Shown here piece by piece: positions 58,983 to 64,000 of a DNA stretch of 64,000 bases. A model generated the notes under the pieces. That model did not search any database. It saw nothing but the letters and a program-made list of their open reading frames with translations, and was not told the origin of the DNA. Source of the DNA: Mogibacterium sp. (GTDB taxonomy: Bacteria; Bacillota; Clostridia; Peptostreptococcales; Anaerovoracaceae); the NCBI GenBank assembly GCA_017403955.1, contig JAFRDH010000007.1, positions 62,001 through 126,000 on the forward strand, written 5' to 3'. Numbering within the stretch: position 1 is the stretch's first letter; every line of letters starts with the position of its first letter. The translations under genes and the position numbers were made by a program.

Positions 58983-59334
58983 AGTGGGTGTCCCGGTTAC
59001 TGTAAAAAACAAGAAATAATCCCGTTTTGTCATGAAATGGACTGTTTTAGAGCCTATATTGCCCGTTTTCAAACATTTATACTGAAAAAATCAAGCAGAA
59101 ACTGATAAAATGTCATGAAAAACCGCCAATTTTCATGACAAAACATCCTGATGATGCTTGCTTTTTCAGTAAAAATCCAAACAACAGCTCTTATCTGCCT
59201 GCTCTCAAGATAGTTTCATGACATTTATTCCAGACTAAACAATTGTTGTCATAATACACCCCATGCAGAAATGGAAAGAAAGGGATGTGTTATAATAGGG
59301 TGGCAAAAGAATAACCGTTTATCAGGAGCATACG
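58983..59334. other. Gene-free region upstream of the chaperone cassette
   Basis: No gene is seen. The octamer TGTCATGA or its complement TCATGACA occurs at 59028-59035, 59111-59118, 59133-59140 and 59216-59223. A perfect TATAAT at 59291-59296 with TG upstream is the likely -10 for the cassette. No CIRCE or CtsR-type site was found. Confidence 0.65.
59081..59170. repeat. Nested inverted repeats upstream of the chaperone cassette
   Basis: The outer arms, ACTGAAAAAATCAAGCA (59081-59097) and TGCTTGCTTTTTCAGT (59155-59170), pair with one bulge and one mismatch. The inner arms, TGTCATGAAAA (59111-59121) and TTTTCATGACA (59130-59140), pair perfectly around an 8-nt loop. The element could be a small non-autonomous mobile element, an operator array or a structured RNA. 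Confidence 0.7.
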
Positions 59335-59691
59335 ATGGCAGATAATGAAAGAACAATTAATAATCTTGTGGGGATCGCAGTAGAGACATACCGCCTTAAG
59401 GACGTATTCAAACGGGCTTTGAGGAACGCTGACCCCGGTGAGAAGAAGAAATATATGAGCCAGTTCAACTGGTTCGAGAAGCAGGTGCATGCAGCACTCA
59501 AAGATATGGATATACGTGTGGTAGATCTGTCCGGGCAGAAATATGATCCCGGCATGGCTGTGACACCGATCAATCTGGATGATTTTGACATGGATACCGG
59601 CCTGATCATCGACCGCATGATGGAACCCGTCGTAATGCTGGGCGATCAGCTGATCAGGACCGGCACAGTGATACTCAGAGAGGAGAATTGA
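59335..59691 (+). CDS. GrpE-like nucleotide exchange factor, short form
   Basis: The 118-residue protein has a helical first half (INNLVGIAVETYRLKDVFKRALRNA) and a strand-rich second half with VVDLSGQKYDPGMAVTPINLDDF and VMLGDQLIRTGTVILREE. The latter resembles the beta-wing of GrpE (FDPxxHEAV..RPAxVxVS). It lacks GrpE's long N-terminal coiled coil and is about half the usual size. It overlaps the Hsp70-like gene by one base (TGATG), which makes an exchange-factor role for that protein likely. The assignment rests on that context and the weak wing similarity. A ribosome site CAGGAG precedes the ATG. Confidence 0.65.
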   Translation: MADNERTINNLVGIAVETYRLKDVFKRALRNADPGEKKKYMSQFNWFEKQVHAALKDMDIRVVDLSGQKYDPGMAVTPINLDDFDMDTGLIIDRMMEPVVMLGDQLIRTGTVILREEN

Positions 59692-62174
59692 TGGCAATTT
59701 ATATAGGCATAGATCTTGGAACAACTAACAGTGCGATATGTTCTTACGATGGTCTGGAGACCAAAGTCTGGAAGAGCCCTGAGCAGAGCGATGTCACACC
59801 TTCGGCGATCTATATAGATAAACGAGGCAATCGCTACTACGGGCAGAAGGCATACAATCAGTCAGCTTACAATCCGGGCAATTCGGCTACTCTCTTCAAG
59901 CGCTTCATCGGTACCGATACCGTTATGAGATTCGAGGATGCAGACATCACGATGACCCCGGAAGAGTGCAGCGCTGAGATCCTGAGGATACTTTTCAGCT
60001 ATCTGCCTGAGGAAATCAGGAACGACAGTGCAACAGGCACGGTCATCACAGTACCTGCAGCATTCAACGTAATGAAGAAGGAAGCTACGATGGAAGCTGC
60101 TCGTCTTGCGGGCATCGGTAATGTGGCGCTGATGCAGGAGCCGGTCGCCGCGGTAATGAGCGTACTCAAGACATCACCTGAAGACGGGCTGTTCCTGGTT
60201 TATGATCTGGGCGGAGGTACTTTCGATGTATCGATAGCTGAGAATATTTCGGGCAAAATCTCGTTGCTGGCCCACGGCGGTATCGAGATGTGCGGCGGAC
60301 GTGACATTGACCGAAGTATCTATAAGAGCATTGTAGAGCCGTGGATGAGAGCCAATTTCAACCTTCCTGATGACATGGAGGAAGATAAAAAATACAGAAA
60401 ACTCATAAGGATCGCTCAGTGGGCAGCCGAGAGAGCCAAGATAGAGGTCTCATACAAAGGCTCGGGAACCATTGCAATGAGCGAGGATGAGCTTAGATGC
60501 ACAGACCTTGACGGTGAAGAGATGTATCTGGATATAGATATCTCGCAGGAGCAGATGGACAGTCTGCTCTCCGGTATCATAGATGATACGGTCAAGGCTG
60601 CGAAGGATACAATAACCAAGACGGGGCTGAAACCGGGTGATATCCGCAAAATCGTTTTCATAGGCGGGCCGACCAATTACGCACCTCTGAGAGACCGCGT
60701 TTCTGAGGCTCTCGGCATCCCGACCAACACTGATGTCAATCCGATGATCGCAGTCGCTGAAGGCGCAGCAATTTACGCTGAGTCGATCGACTGGAGTGAT
60801 GACAATCATAGCCGCAAGAGCCAGAAAGAGTCACTCGAGTTCGACGCTGACATCAGGCTCAATTACATTGCCAGAACAGCATCAGAAATGGCCATGGTAT
60901 TGCTGGAGACAGACGGGAATGTCAGTGGATACGCAGAGTTCGAATGCACAGACAACGGCTGGACTTCGGGCAAAATATCGATTGAAGATGGCGCAACTGC
61001 AAGTCTTCCGCTGGTGCAGAGAGGTGATAATCATTTCCGCGTCAAAATGACAGACCTTAGAGGTAATAGCCTGAAAGATCCTGAGGATATCGTGATCACA
61101 AGGACAATGGCAACTGTCAGTGCTATCCCGGCATCACATTCAATAGGGATCGAAGTTATCAGTAAACTCGGAGGAGCGTCGGAGTTGGTCTTCCTTGTAA
61201 AGGAAGGTGACAGTCTCCCGGCCAAAGGGACGATAAGGGTCAAAGCCGGTCAGACTATACGCTCGGGATCTGCTGAGTCCATCAATATAAAGCTTTGGGA
61301 AGGAGACATCCAGACAAGGATCGAAGATAACAGATTCATCGGTATGCTCAAGATCCGCGGCACGGATATCGATGCAGGAATGATCCCGACCGGGACAGAT
61401 ATAGACTGTGAGTATGAAGTCACGGATTCAGGTCAGATCAGACTTGAGGCATCCGTTCCGTATATTGCGGCGACCTTCAAAGGAAACAACCTTTATTCCA
61501 GACAGGAAGGCGCAGTCATAGACAAAAATGTTGTCGCCAAAGCAGGCAGGAGACTTCTTGAAGAGATCACGGATATGCTCCATAGGATACCATCTGCCGA
61601 ACTCTACGCAGCCAAGGCAAAAGCTCAGAACGCTGCCAATGCGGGGGGCCTTAGAGACGATGATGCAGAGCAGATCCAGAAGGCTGACAATGACCTGCTC
61701 GAAGCGAGAAGGATCGCTGACAAATACCGCAGAGAAAACGTAAAGCTGATACGTGAGATGCAGGTGGAAAAGAAGCGCAGCCATTATGAGCAGGATATTG
61801 CAGAATATGCGACAACAGCGGAGAAACAGCAGATCGAGAATTACTTCAGGCTGGCGAAGCAATCCCTGGAGCAGGACGGGAAGTATCTCGAGGATATTCT
61901 GAGTGATCTCGGAAGAATGTTTATTAATATTCTGTGGCGTCAGGATTGGTATGTCATCAGATATTTCCAGATATTAGTGATCAGCGATGGTACTTATACT
62001 GACAGCGAAAGGTATTATGAACTGATCGAACGGGGAAATAAGTTCCTCGAAGACGGTAATATTGAGGCCCTGCGAGGGATAGTGATCTCTATCCTGAATC
62101 TCAGAAAAGATGATGACGATGACATTGAGGAGATGACAGGCCTTATGGACGTCGCTAATATCATCAAAGGATAG
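59691..62174 (+). CDS. Enlarged Hsp70 family chaperone
   Basis: The 827-residue protein has a complete Hsp70 nucleotide domain: IGIDLGTTNS (6-14), phosphate-2 motif YDLGGGTFDVS (171-181) and adenosine motif IGGPTNYAPLRDRV (324 on), ending near 366. A strand-rich insert of about 110 residues (370-480) replaces the short DnaK linker. A substrate-domain-like part follows, starting HSIGIEVISKLGG (483) and including IRVKAGQTIRSGSAESINIKLWEGD. Then comes a long helical lid (about 610-740) and a charged C-terminal tail with RKDDDDDIEE. Usual DnaK is about 610 residues. It is coupled to a GrpE-like gene and followed by an AAA+ and a J-like gene, so it is a dedicated, non-housekeeping Hsp70. Confidence 0.88.
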   Translation: MAIYIGIDLGTTNSAICSYDGLETKVWKSPEQSDVTPSAIYIDKRGNRYYGQKAYNQSAYNPGNSATLFKRFIGTDTVMRFEDADITMTPEECSAEILRILFSYLPEEIRNDSATGTVITVPAAFNVMKKEATMEAARLAGIGNVALMQEPVAAVMSVLKTSPEDGLFLVYDLGGGTFDVSIAENISGKISLLAHGGIEMCGGRDIDRSIYKSIVEPWMRANFNLPDDMEEDKKYRKLIRIAQWAAERAKIEVSYKGSGTIAMSEDELRCTDLDGEEMYLDIDISQEQMDSLLSGIIDDTVKAAKDTITKTGLKPGDIRKIVFIGGPTNYAPLRDRVSEALGIPTNTDVNPMIAVAEGAAIYAESIDWSDDNHSRKSQKESLEFDADIRLNYIARTASEMAMVLLETDGNVSGYAEFECTDNGWTSGKISIEDGATASLPLVQRGDNHFRVKMTDLRGNSLKDPEDIVITRTMATVSAIPASHSIGIEVISKLGGASELVFLVKEGDSLPAKGTIRVKAGQTIRSGSAESINIKLWEGDIQTRIEDNRFIGMLKIRGTDIDAGMIPTGTDIDCEYEVTDSGQIRLEASVPYIAATFKGNNLYSRQEGAVIDKNVVAKAGRRLLEEITDMLHRIPSAELYAAKAKAQNAANAGGLRDDDAEQIQKADNDLLEARRIADKYRRENVKLIREMQVEKKRSHYEQDIAEYATTAEKQQIENYFRLAKQSLEQDGKYLEDILSDLGRMFINILWRQDWYVIRYFQILVISDGTYTDSERYYELIERGNKFLEDGNIEALRGIVISILNLRKDDDDDIEEMTGLMDVANIIKG

Positions 62175-62185
62175 GAGAATAAGTA

Positions 62186-63592
62186 ATGAAAATGTGGCTT
62201 AAAAAGGGCACGGCTGTTGGTGGCGCCACAGCCGGAAGAATGATAGCTTCCGGTGATGATTGGCAGATCTATAAGACTGACAGGGAGTCTTACATCCTTG
62301 CTGTGCGCAAAAGCCTGGCGGCAAGATGGTCGGATCATCCTGAGACTGCTTCTCTTTTCACACCTTATACAAAAGATGAGGATATACTGACCTTTGTCTC
62401 TAAACCGGGATGGTTAGTGTCGTCTCTGAGCAAAGGACCGTTCCCTCGCGCGAGAACACAGATCGAGAATTTTGACAATGCATGCGTGAGACTCAGGAGA
62501 GAGTATCCCGATGCGCCTGTAACAGGAGCGTTATTCATAGAAGAATGTAACCTTATACTTCCTGCTGACCCTGACGCAGACAGATCAGACGATGATCTTG
62601 CGATCGGCACCTGGATCACGGGCGGCGTCCACGTCCTCATATCGGATACAGCGGCGGCACACAGAATGGCGTCATGGTTCCCCGAAGAAGTGCTGATGAG
62701 GATCGCAGAGGATGCAAAAGTGGTCCAGGGCAAAGGCGCGGGGCTGCGGACGAGAACGGATGTCGCAGATGCGAATGTGAACACTGATGATCCAGTGCCG
62801 CCTGTATCTGCAAGGAGAGAGATGCCTGACGAACCGTTCAGCCTCCCGGGCAGCAGCAAACTCGAGAAGTTTTTCAATGAAGAAATAATAGATATCGTGC
62901 GACACGCTGATGAGTACAAGAGGATGGGGATCGAATTCCCGGGAGCGGTAGTGCTCTACGGACCGCCGGGCACCGGCAAGACTTTTGCCGTAGAGAAACT
63001 CGCCGAATACCTCGGATGGCCGAGATACGACATCAACTCAGACAGTGTCGGCAGCACATACATACATGAGACAGGAATGAAGATCGCAAGGATTTTCGAC
63101 ATGGCGATCAGCAATGCACCGTCCGTTATAGTGATCGATGAGATGGAATCCTTCCTGTCTGAAAGGGCCGGAAAGCAGCAGCACCACGTTGAGGAAGTCG
63201 CAGAGTTTCTCCGCAAGATACCTGAAGCGACATCGAAAAATGTGCTTGTTTTCGGTATGACCAATGTCATAAAGGAAATCGATCAGGCTATACTCAGGCG
63301 GGGCAGATTCGACTATATGATAGAGGTCGATTACGCGGACAAGAACGATATAAGAAATTTGCTGGAGGCCAGAAAGAAAACGATCCCGATCGATGATGAT
63401 GCAGATCTTGACAGACTTGCCGGCGAACTTGCAGGACATCCTATGTCGGATGTGGTTTTCGTCCTGAAAGAAGCCGGAAGATACGCTGTCAAAAATAGGG
63501 TCAGGACAATAACAGATGAGGCTTTCAGAGCAGCACTCAAACAGCTTAAGGGCGTCAAGAAGACAAAAAACAAAATAGGTTTTTCAGTTTAG
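62186..63592 (+). CDS. AAA+ ATPase of the chaperone cassette
   Basis: The 468-residue protein has an unrecognised N-terminal domain of about 225 residues, opening GTAVGGATAGRMIASGDDWQIY, which faintly recalls a degenerate kinase glycine loop. A classical AAA+ domain follows: Walker A GPPGTGKT (259-266), Walker B VIVIDEMES (D318, E319), sensor VFGMTNV and arginine finger ILRRGRFDYMIEV. It resembles the FtsH/CDC48/spastin branch and lacks a protease domain. It begins 11 nt after the Hsp70 gene, with ATAGGAG as ribosome site. A remodelling ATPase next to Hsp70 suggests a disaggregase-like or complex-disassembling pair. Confidence 0.85.
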   Translation: MKMWLKKGTAVGGATAGRMIASGDDWQIYKTDRESYILAVRKSLAARWSDHPETASLFTPYTKDEDILTFVSKPGWLVSSLSKGPFPRARTQIENFDNACVRLRREYPDAPVTGALFIEECNLILPADPDADRSDDDLAIGTWITGGVHVLISDTAAAHRMASWFPEEVLMRIAEDAKVVQGKGAGLRTRTDVADANVNTDDPVPPVSARREMPDEPFSLPGSSKLEKFFNEEIIDIVRHADEYKRMGIEFPGAVVLYGPPGTGKTFAVEKLAEYLGWPRYDINSDSVGSTYIHETGMKIARIFDMAISNAPSVIVIDEMESFLSERAGKQQHHVEEVAEFLRKIPEATSKNVLVFGMTNVIKEIDQAILRRGRFDYMIEVDYADKNDIRNLLEARKKTIPIDDDADLDRLAGELAGHPMSDVVFVLKEAGRYAVKNRVRTITDEAFRAALKQLKGVKKTKNKIGFSV

Positions 63593-63613
63593 ACAGCAGG
63601 AGTGAAGATAAGG

Positions 63614-64000
63614 ATGCTGCAGAATAATCCGTTTTACATATTGAATATCCCGATGAACGCGGGCAAAAGCGCGATAGTTGCCGCATCAGAAGCTGCGCTC
63701 CTGAAAGGCAGCAAAAAACCCGGCGATGAGAGCGAAGGCGCTTTTTCCGTGCTGGTAAATCCCGATCAGCGCCTTGCTGCCGAACTTGATTGGTTCCCGG
63801 GGCTTGAGGAAGAGAAAATCTCTGAGATATGCCGTGCGGTCAGATCTACTCTGCCGATAGATGAACAGGGACTCAGTGGTGTAGCTCTTCTCAATGCCGG
63901 GCTTTACAACCTTGGCCTCATGACAATGCAGAAGGGCGGGAGCAAAAAGAACTTCATACAGAGCGTTGCTGATGCTGTATGGAAGATCGCTGAGCTTTAT
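63614..64000 (+). CDS. J-domain-like protein (3' end cut by window)
   Basis: ATG 63614, 21 nt after the AAA+ stop, opens a frame that runs to the window end (129 codons). It begins MLQNNPFYILNIPMNAGKSA, the NPF-x-I/V-L-x-hP opening of J-domains and J-like proteins of Hsp70 clusters, and continues FSVLVNPDQRLAAELDWFPG, also typical of those. The catalytic HPD is not seen between the two. It may be a degenerate J-protein that recruits the neighbouring Hsp70, but most of the gene is outside the window. It is fourth in the cassette. Confidence 0.55.
   Translation, partial: MLQNNPFYILNIPMNAGKSAIVAASEAALLKGSKKPGDESEGAFSVLVNPDQRLAAELDWFPGLEEEKISEICRAVRSTLPIDEQGLSGVALLNAGLYNLGLMTMQKGGSKKNFIQSVADAVWKIAELY

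Follow-up and report, generated by a model that had tools for sequence, protein, structure and literature searches.

A conserved cassette of GrpE-like, Hsp70, AAA+ and J-like genes in Mogibacterium sp., with loss of the HPD-arginine contact and a possible link to defence

A stretch of 64,000 nucleotides from Mogibacterium sp. (assembly GCA_017403955.1, contig JAFRDH010000007.1, positions 62,001 to 126,000), referred to below as the window, ends in a chaperone gene cassette. Four open reading frames (ORFs) at 59335..64000, all on the + strand, encode a short GrpE-like protein, an Hsp70 (the family Hsp70), an AAA+ ATPase and a J-like protein. The cassette is real and conserved. As read from the alignments, both halves of the contact between the HPD tripeptide of J proteins and an arginine of Hsp70 are lost and the ATPase residues are kept. 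The evidence inclines, if only slightly, towards a dedicated, mobile protein-remodelling machine that serves defence against phages or other mobile elements, the defence role being suggested by gene neighbourhoods. The favoured picture is of a machine that is insulated from cellular DnaK.

Conservation of the gene set and properties of its proteins

Relatives of the AAA+ protein were collected from one-per-species genomes (AAA+ profile, tblastn, E 1e-3), which gave 160 relatives, and the best 80 loci were kept. Because the loci were picked by the AAA+ gene, the co-occurrence counts are conditional on it. The family Hsp70 gene was upstream of the AAA+ gene in 65/65 loci with at least 3.2 kb of contig upstream, and the GrpE-like gene in 64/65, the remaining one being a Blautia locus without a GrpE-like match. 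A J-like gene was downstream in 69 of the 70 loci with at least 3 kb of contig on that side, as counted with a profile built in three rounds that included family members; an archaeal locus was without a J-like match. The GrpE-like and Hsp70 genes overlapped by 4 bases in most loci (58/69). Gene calls are six-frame ORFs throughout, and gap lengths depend on the first start codon. Among the loci in the Hsp70 tree are near-copies (L069/L070/L071, L075/L083 and L036/L049). A count across genomes had been asked for beforehand, with rare co-occurrence as the outcome that would refute the proposal, and the four genes do co-occur.

The genome that holds the window has three Hsp70 loci, namely a normal DnaK at C22:16663 (with GrpE ahead of it and DnaJ behind, as we read the ORFs), the window copy and a copy on contig 12. 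A separate DnaK (E 2e-235 or better) was present in 25/25 carrier genomes tested, in one of them with an internal TGA. In that genome, of Marinobacter salarius (L038), the DnaK frame G548:C1:2206737-2208508 has one TGA, which may be a sequence error. Carriers are also rare, with the cassette in 2/47 genomes of the genus and 2/398 genomes of a phylum sample, the own genome included in both. Every part of the cassette resembles a known chaperone fold, as would be expected of ordinary housekeeping chaperone genes clustered by chance. That explanation is refuted by the separate DnaK of the window genome and of the carriers, by the rarity of the cassette and by a gene order fixed across phyla, and is considered extremely improbable. 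A preliminary description of the window had proposed a self-contained set apart from housekeeping DnaK with a non-ClpB AAA+ ATPase, and the DnaK, co-occurrence and AAA+ results support this. It had also named the case in which this Hsp70 is the only DnaK of a genome and the cassette is housekeeping, which the separate DnaK and the scarcity within the genus contradict.

The AAA+ protein (Pfam AAA, 5e-28) has one classical AAA domain of the Cdc48/p97 type behind an N-terminal domain of its own of about 230 aa, and Cdc48/VCP was the closest class among both NCBIfam profiles and solved structures. By strict patterns, the motifs that we take to be Walker A, Walker B, the arginine finger and the aromatic pore loop were found in 75, 77, 78 and 63 of 80 copies, respectively. 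ClpB/Hsp100 proteins are defined by a pair of AAA rings and a middle domain of the ClpB type, and the single AAA domain places the cassette protein outside that class. No protease domain was matched in it in Pfam, so the ATPase should remodel its substrates rather than degrade them.

The family Hsp70 matched Pfam HSP70 (E 5.5e-56) over the ATPase domain only, and the window copy shared 44-54% identity with four remote members of the family. The actin-like ATPase domain has the catalytic residues expected of an Hsp70. Their equivalents (D8, K70, E171, D194, T199 and D201, in what we take to be E. coli DnaK numbering) were present in 75/75 aligned family Hsp70s, a set that includes the window copy and near-copies. 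The position of E. coli R167 was arginine in 0/75 of these proteins (A 67, T 7, G 1), and the N170 position was Q in all 75. A beta-sandwich substrate-binding domain, as in other Hsp70s, is predicted. A hydrophobic linker directly joining the two domains was not found; the DnaK linker columns are unconserved, and about 95 residues of a predicted beta domain sit at the place of the DnaK linker, between the ATPase and substrate-binding domains. The predicted order of the C-terminal half is beta-sandwich, substrate-binding domain and a long helical array, the last of which presumably exceeds the DnaK lid in size. The inserted beta-sandwich may be Ig-like, which is our reading of the strand pattern in the model. 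When the C-terminal half of the Hsp70 was used as a single-sequence probe, it picked out no genome but its own among 148 of the family, and the AAA+ protein was the better probe.

The J-like domain is predicted to fold as a J domain. The HPD tripeptide of a canonical J domain occurred in 0/87 J-like proteins of more than 300 aa and in 0/38 aligned domains; this set of 38 chosen domains with a count over all 87 proteins replaced a regular-expression cut that kept 38/87. No sequence profile matched the J-like protein, and a PDB sequence search with the J-like profile was also empty, so the name rests on the predicted fold. Comparison by hhalign was tried and set aside. The J-like profile against a single DnaJ sequence gave a probability of 1.0 percent, and the Hsp70 profile against a single DnaK sequence gave 0.17 percent, though in both the aligned part read as in register. 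Because these probabilities were very low, predicted folds were relied on for both proteins. Passages of one published account state that J proteins critically need HPD to trigger Hsp70, and that R167 is the partner of HPD (PMC7289447). The usual contact between Hsp70 and J protein appears to be replaced in the cassette family.

The GrpE-like protein matched the Pfam GrpE profile with E 9e-4 at positions 72-162 of 165, which is the C-terminal part only, and scored below the curated GrpE cut-off (19.3 vs 25.8 bits). Its best match among solved structures was the GrpE of a DnaK-GrpE entry (E 0.0047), its hhalign probability was weak at 6.5 percent, and it was 33-44% identical to four remote family members. 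The gene names given in the preliminary description hold to different degrees. That of the AAA+ protein is clear, that of Hsp70 is secure over the ATPase domain only, the GrpE name has weak homology behind it and J-like is a name by predicted fold.

A hydrophobic segment was present in the J-like protein or in a second accessory protein in 66/83 loci with a J-like gene. For the accessory protein with such a segment, 53/70 loci is a safer count than 55/70, which takes in L020 and L059, whose weak match is the J-like protein itself; the accessory protein is absent mainly from Clostridia. In Shewanella it carries a peptidoglycan-binding domain (E 1.5e-15). A clostridial subgroup (L027, L028, L034, L035, L046, L060 and L082) departs from this between the AAA+ and J-like genes, either in arrangement or in having another membrane protein (about 550-590 aa). 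These hydrophobic segments and the peptidoglycan-binding domain, as well as an RDD-family gene in two longer operons, would suit a private chaperone that builds or dismantles an envelope structure (secretion, surface or peptidoglycan-linked) and is borne on islands for reasons other than defence. No shared structural or secretion gene was seen beyond the cassette, where no systematic clustering of neighbours was made, and known defence genes surround several copies; this explanation is rated as rather improbable. Separately, several Gammaproteobacteria and Betaproteobacteria appear to extend the cassette into a longer operon (at about 15000-18800 in L014 and L015) whose small genes include one of the RDD family and one weakly similar to T2SS-M. 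Similar gene sizes were seen in L069, L081, L090, L091 and L096, where likeness was judged by size and order only.

Mobility, defence neighbourhoods and possible function

The 80 loci span Clostridia, Pseudomonadota, Thermodesulfobacteriota, Myxococcota, Chloroflexota and Nitrospirota, and also include Acidobacteriota, Verrucomicrobiota, Gemmatimonadota, Chlorobiota and one archaeal bin. Plasmids of Aeromonas, Shewanella, Polaromonas and Vibrio carry the cassette, and the Aeromonas and Shewanella plasmid copies lie directly behind Tn7-like tnsE genes. DNA like the Shewanella copy was found in 2/5426 E. coli genomes, as the whole set in HeN100 and as a remnant only in NH-21. In the Hsp70 tree, the strongly supported branches required a minimum of 7 changes for Pseudomonadota and of 5 for Thermodesulfobacteriota. 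Such counts are no proof of transfer; the tree was quick, some of its branches are long and some of its organisms are bins. Near-identical Hsp70 copies were found in Lysobacter and Methylotetracoccus. Taken together, the patchiness, the plasmid and Tn7-like carriage and the tree fit transfer better than descent. An empty-site comparison in genome G585 was uninformative, with the upstream gene alone shared.

Such carriage is also a property of tLST, which is mobile and can have flanking Tn7 elements according to the parts of PMC8290217 that were available. A mobile stress-survival machine of this kind, acting in protein disaggregation, would explain the plasmid and Tn7-like carriers as well as the pairing of Hsp70 with an AAA+ protein, which is the logic of disaggregation. 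The tLST parts differ, being sHsp20, ClpG and FtsH, with DnaK mentioned in the same passages only for the core-genome ClpB-DnaK pair (PMC8290217). The recognisable neighbours of the cassette are defence genes, though tLST genes were not searched for, and the predicted membrane links and the HPD loss are unexpected for a general disaggregase. A tLST-like role is judged unlikely.

Defence genes were found beside a minority of the copies. In E. coli HeN100, RADAR rdrB and a piece of dptF lie behind the cassette, after IS3, and the island also carries toxin-antitoxin, antirestriction and annotated GTPase genes. The Polaromonas plasmid has zorA on one side of the cassette and an AAA-ATPase/helicase pair on the other, and in a clostridial bin type I-E cas3 and casA to casE follow directly behind the J-like gene. 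HamA and HamB are on the same strand as the cassette in the endosymbiont of Escarpia (L037), which has type I restriction-modification as well, and in Desulfopila (L045). SngC was matched in Marinobacter salarius (L038), HEC-05 in Advenella (L061) and HmaC in a Thiocapsa bin (L086); we take the Ham, Sng and Hma codes of PADLOC to stand for the Hachiman, Shango and Hma systems. Type IIG enzymes were found at two loci, L050 and L087, one of which is from Pseudoxanthomonas and the other from a Hyphomicrobiales bin, and the PADLOC models PDC-S20 and PDC-S37 were matched at L036 and at L053, L088 and L080, respectively.

A matched PADLOC test compared 120 ORFs of 150-900 aa from 25 cassette loci with 120 ORFs from 24 control regions on the same contigs, a 25th control region having been left out for its too large residue total. 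A match below 1e-100 was obtained at no fewer than 5/25 cassette loci (L036, L037, L038, L045 and L061), and the best among the listed control-ORF matches was 8.6e-74, to PD-T4-6, presumably a kinase model. ORFs of more than 900 aa were scanned on the cassette side only, and the L050, L088 and HamB matches are outside the matched comparison. Family totals at 1e-10 (184 vs 40) were not used, since the listing covered 25 of each and restriction models are redundant. The difference between cassette and control regions is clear in kind and comes from a small sample.

Several observations weigh against a defence machine built on these four genes. Known or candidate defence genes were beside only 7/25 matched loci (L036, L037, L038, L045, L050, L061 and L088), and PDC-S20 and PDC-S37 are candidate systems only. 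When 36 chosen flank proteins were compared with PADLOC, 20 had no match at the set limits and 16 matched, one of these (L034) by a kinase-type model only. No defence gene was seen beside the window's own cassette, where two flanking proteins were scanned against NCBIfam only. Nine cassette proteins matched no specific model of PADLOC 2.0.0; generic AAA+ models matched the AAA+ proteins among them (IetA best, 3.6e-27), and the best other match was PDC-M61B at 1e-4. Viral contigs held no full-length member among the matches listed, with partial AAA-domain matches only (best 35% over residues 222-435), and 39 phage records matched the Hsp70, none over more than 80% of its length, the 20 listed reaching only about residue 367. 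Finally, full-length Hsp70 relatives were found on 13 plasmid records, and a full-length AAA+ protein in 4/13 of these. In three of the other records, plasmids of Sinorhizobium, Aminobacter and Pseudomonas, Hsp70s that are 26-35% identical to the Shewanella Hsp70 have as neighbours a gene of GrpE size and a large uncharacterised protein. Because such relatives occur without it, the AAA+ protein is not obligatory in the wider Hsp70 family and may be one of several partners.

The arrangement on these three plasmids (L101, L102 and L103) consists of the large uncharacterised protein, a 117-118 aa gene that is GrpE-sized by length only and an Hsp70 of 833-843 aa. Nearby are a restriction endonuclease and toxin-antitoxin genes in Sinorhizobium (L101), an AAA/helicase pair in Aminobacter (L102) and PAPS-reductase-family genes in Pseudomonas (L103).

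The preliminary description had left quality control, complex disassembly and phage conflict as possible uses. Of the three, phage conflict is the most favoured as a putative function, by indirect evidence from the neighbourhoods. A remodelling machine in the service of defence might work as follows. The J-like protein without HPD would be held at the membrane, through a segment of its own or through a partner, and would recognise a target and pass it to the family Hsp70 through a contact without the HPD-arginine pair, whose loss is seen on both sides and for which a substitute contact would be needed. The short GrpE-like factor, to judge from its weak homology and its position, would reset the Hsp70. 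By its motifs and by the precedent of ClpB, an AAA+ protein that works with Hsp70, the Cdc48-class ring would pull the target apart; the neighbourhoods suggest that this target could be a foreign or infection-induced assembly. A bolder version is put forward tentatively, as something that may well prove wrong. It is a defence system whose re-invented J-Hsp70 switch would respond neither to the DnaJ of the host nor to J-proteins of phages, with a membrane-held J-like sensor feeding infection-specific complexes to the Cdc48-like ring for dismantling.

Layout of the cassette in the window and a second cassette

The features of the cassette in the window are given in Table 1. Four genes had been described at this place, and all four are there; extension of the contig past position 64000, which had been asked for as a check, completed gene four and revealed a fifth, so the unit here has five genes. 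The complete J-like protein has 422 aa (L007:6603-7871), with a predicted J fold at residues 1-66 and two hydrophobic segments that start at residues 352 and 390. Gene five, just beyond the window end, encodes a second J-like protein of 570 aa (L007:7873-9585) with the same N-terminal motif as gene four and one hydrophobic segment. In view of these segments, both J-like proteins are predicted to be membrane-anchored. For the Hsp70, a start at ATG 59691 is likelier than at TTG 59688, and with it the one-base overlap with the GrpE-like stop holds as first described. The described gaps of 11 and 21 nt between the following genes also hold, the latter with the J-like start at ATG 63614. A candidate -10 ahead of the operon can be read directly, and the promoter scanner lists no promoter at 59291..59296.

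Table 1. Features of the chaperone cassette in the window
Feature	Position	Strand	Basis or remark
Candidate -10, TATAAT	59291..59296	+	Direct reading of the sequence
Ribosome site, AGGAG	59324-59328	+	Direct reading
GrpE-like protein, 118 aa	59335..59691	+	Weak Pfam GrpE match
Family Hsp70, 828 aa from TTG	59688..62174	+	Pfam HSP70
Predicted beta-sandwich insert, Hsp70 residues ~379-472	60822..61103	+	AlphaFold2 model, strands over fragment residues 6-98
Hsp70 substrate-binding beta domain, residues ~474-608	61107..61511	+	Predicted
Long helical C-terminal region of Hsp70, residues ~613-805	61524..62102	+	AlphaFold2 (predicted), nine helices
AAA+ ATPase, 468 aa	62186..63592	+	Pfam AAA; 11-nt gap after Hsp70
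J-like gene, cut by window end	63602..64000	+	Start GTG 63602 or ATG 63614

The same genome has a second, related but distinct cassette on contig 12 (L008, 4986-13204, minus strand). It encodes a GrpE-like protein of 141 aa (21 bits to the GrpE profile, below the 25.8 cut-off), an Hsp70 of 838 aa that is 27% identical to the window Hsp70, an AAA+ protein nearest to the SpoVK/CbbX type, a Sel1-repeat/DUF1883 protein in which a J-like stretch can be read (from motifs only) and a zinc-ribbon protein. The C-terminal half of the contig 12 Hsp70, used as a probe, found its own genome only among 146 of the family. Upstream of the window cassette, at 59024-59226, lies an intergenic repeat, palindromic and dispersed, in which TGTCATGAAA stands at a fixed spacing. 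This 10-mer has 46 copies in the genome vs 4 for the reversed pattern and recurs with the same spacing at several other places; the repeat is possibly a structured element or one like a miniature inverted-repeat transposable element. The four upstream copies were considered as an operator and rejected, because the arrangement recurs around the genome.

Known systems and significance

No account of the gene set was seen among the papers listed in searches of the open-licence literature (bioRxiv excluded), as judged from titles, abstracts and passages. Of the published ideas found, the HSP70/GrpE theme of the GAP1-N2 GTPase-centred conflict systems (Kaur et al., 2020, PMC7159879) comes closest. 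These systems share with the cassette an Hsp70 with GrpE, a DnaJ-domain protein and membrane features, and are predicted to act in conflict, chiefly in actinobacteria and firmicutes. They are centred on GTPase/GAP1 and have a DnaJ domain fused to an FNIII-repeat protein, whereas the cassette has a Cdc48-class AAA+ protein and an HPD-less J protein. GTPase/GAP1 was not among the conserved partners identified for the cassette, where no search aimed at GTPase or GAP1 models was made.

The cassette resembles DnaK-DnaJ-GrpE with ClpB in having an Hsp70, an exchange factor, a J-fold protein and an AAA+ protein. It differs in its Cdc48-type AAA+ protein with one AAA domain, in the loss of both HPD and its R167 partner, in the predicted beta domain in the linker region, in a J-like protein that often has hydrophobic segments and in forming one mobile operon. 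The tLST likewise joins mobile chaperone genes with an AAA+ protein, but has ClpG and sHsp20 where the cassette has Hsp70, GrpE-like and J-like proteins. Pam16 also lacks HPD, and HPD-less J-like proteins are known mainly from eukaryotes. The cassette shares with the Pam16 type a J fold without HPD and differs in that the operon's own Hsp70 has also lost the arginine that would pair with HPD. A J-protein and Hsp70 have also been linked to phage sensing. The available passages of one report state that phage defence by bNACHT25 needs host DnaJ and its contact with DnaK, and that DnaJ HPD point mutants fail in the phage-defence assay (PMC12169576). bNACHT25 depends on host chaperones, whereas the cassette brings its own.

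New beyond the preliminary description are the loss of HPD together with that of its arginine partner, the inserted beta domain, the fifth gene and the second related cassette in the same genome. The cassette is a variant of Hsp70-based machines, with a plausible but unproven role in defence. Chaperones in anti-phage systems are known mainly as host factors, and if the link to defence is true, the cassette would place a complete private chaperone machine among such systems. Its parts are small enough for expression and assay in a laboratory strain. Overall, a family spread over many phyla has dropped HPD and R167 and kept the ATPase residues, so that the true requirements of the J-Hsp70 switch can be tested cleanly in it.

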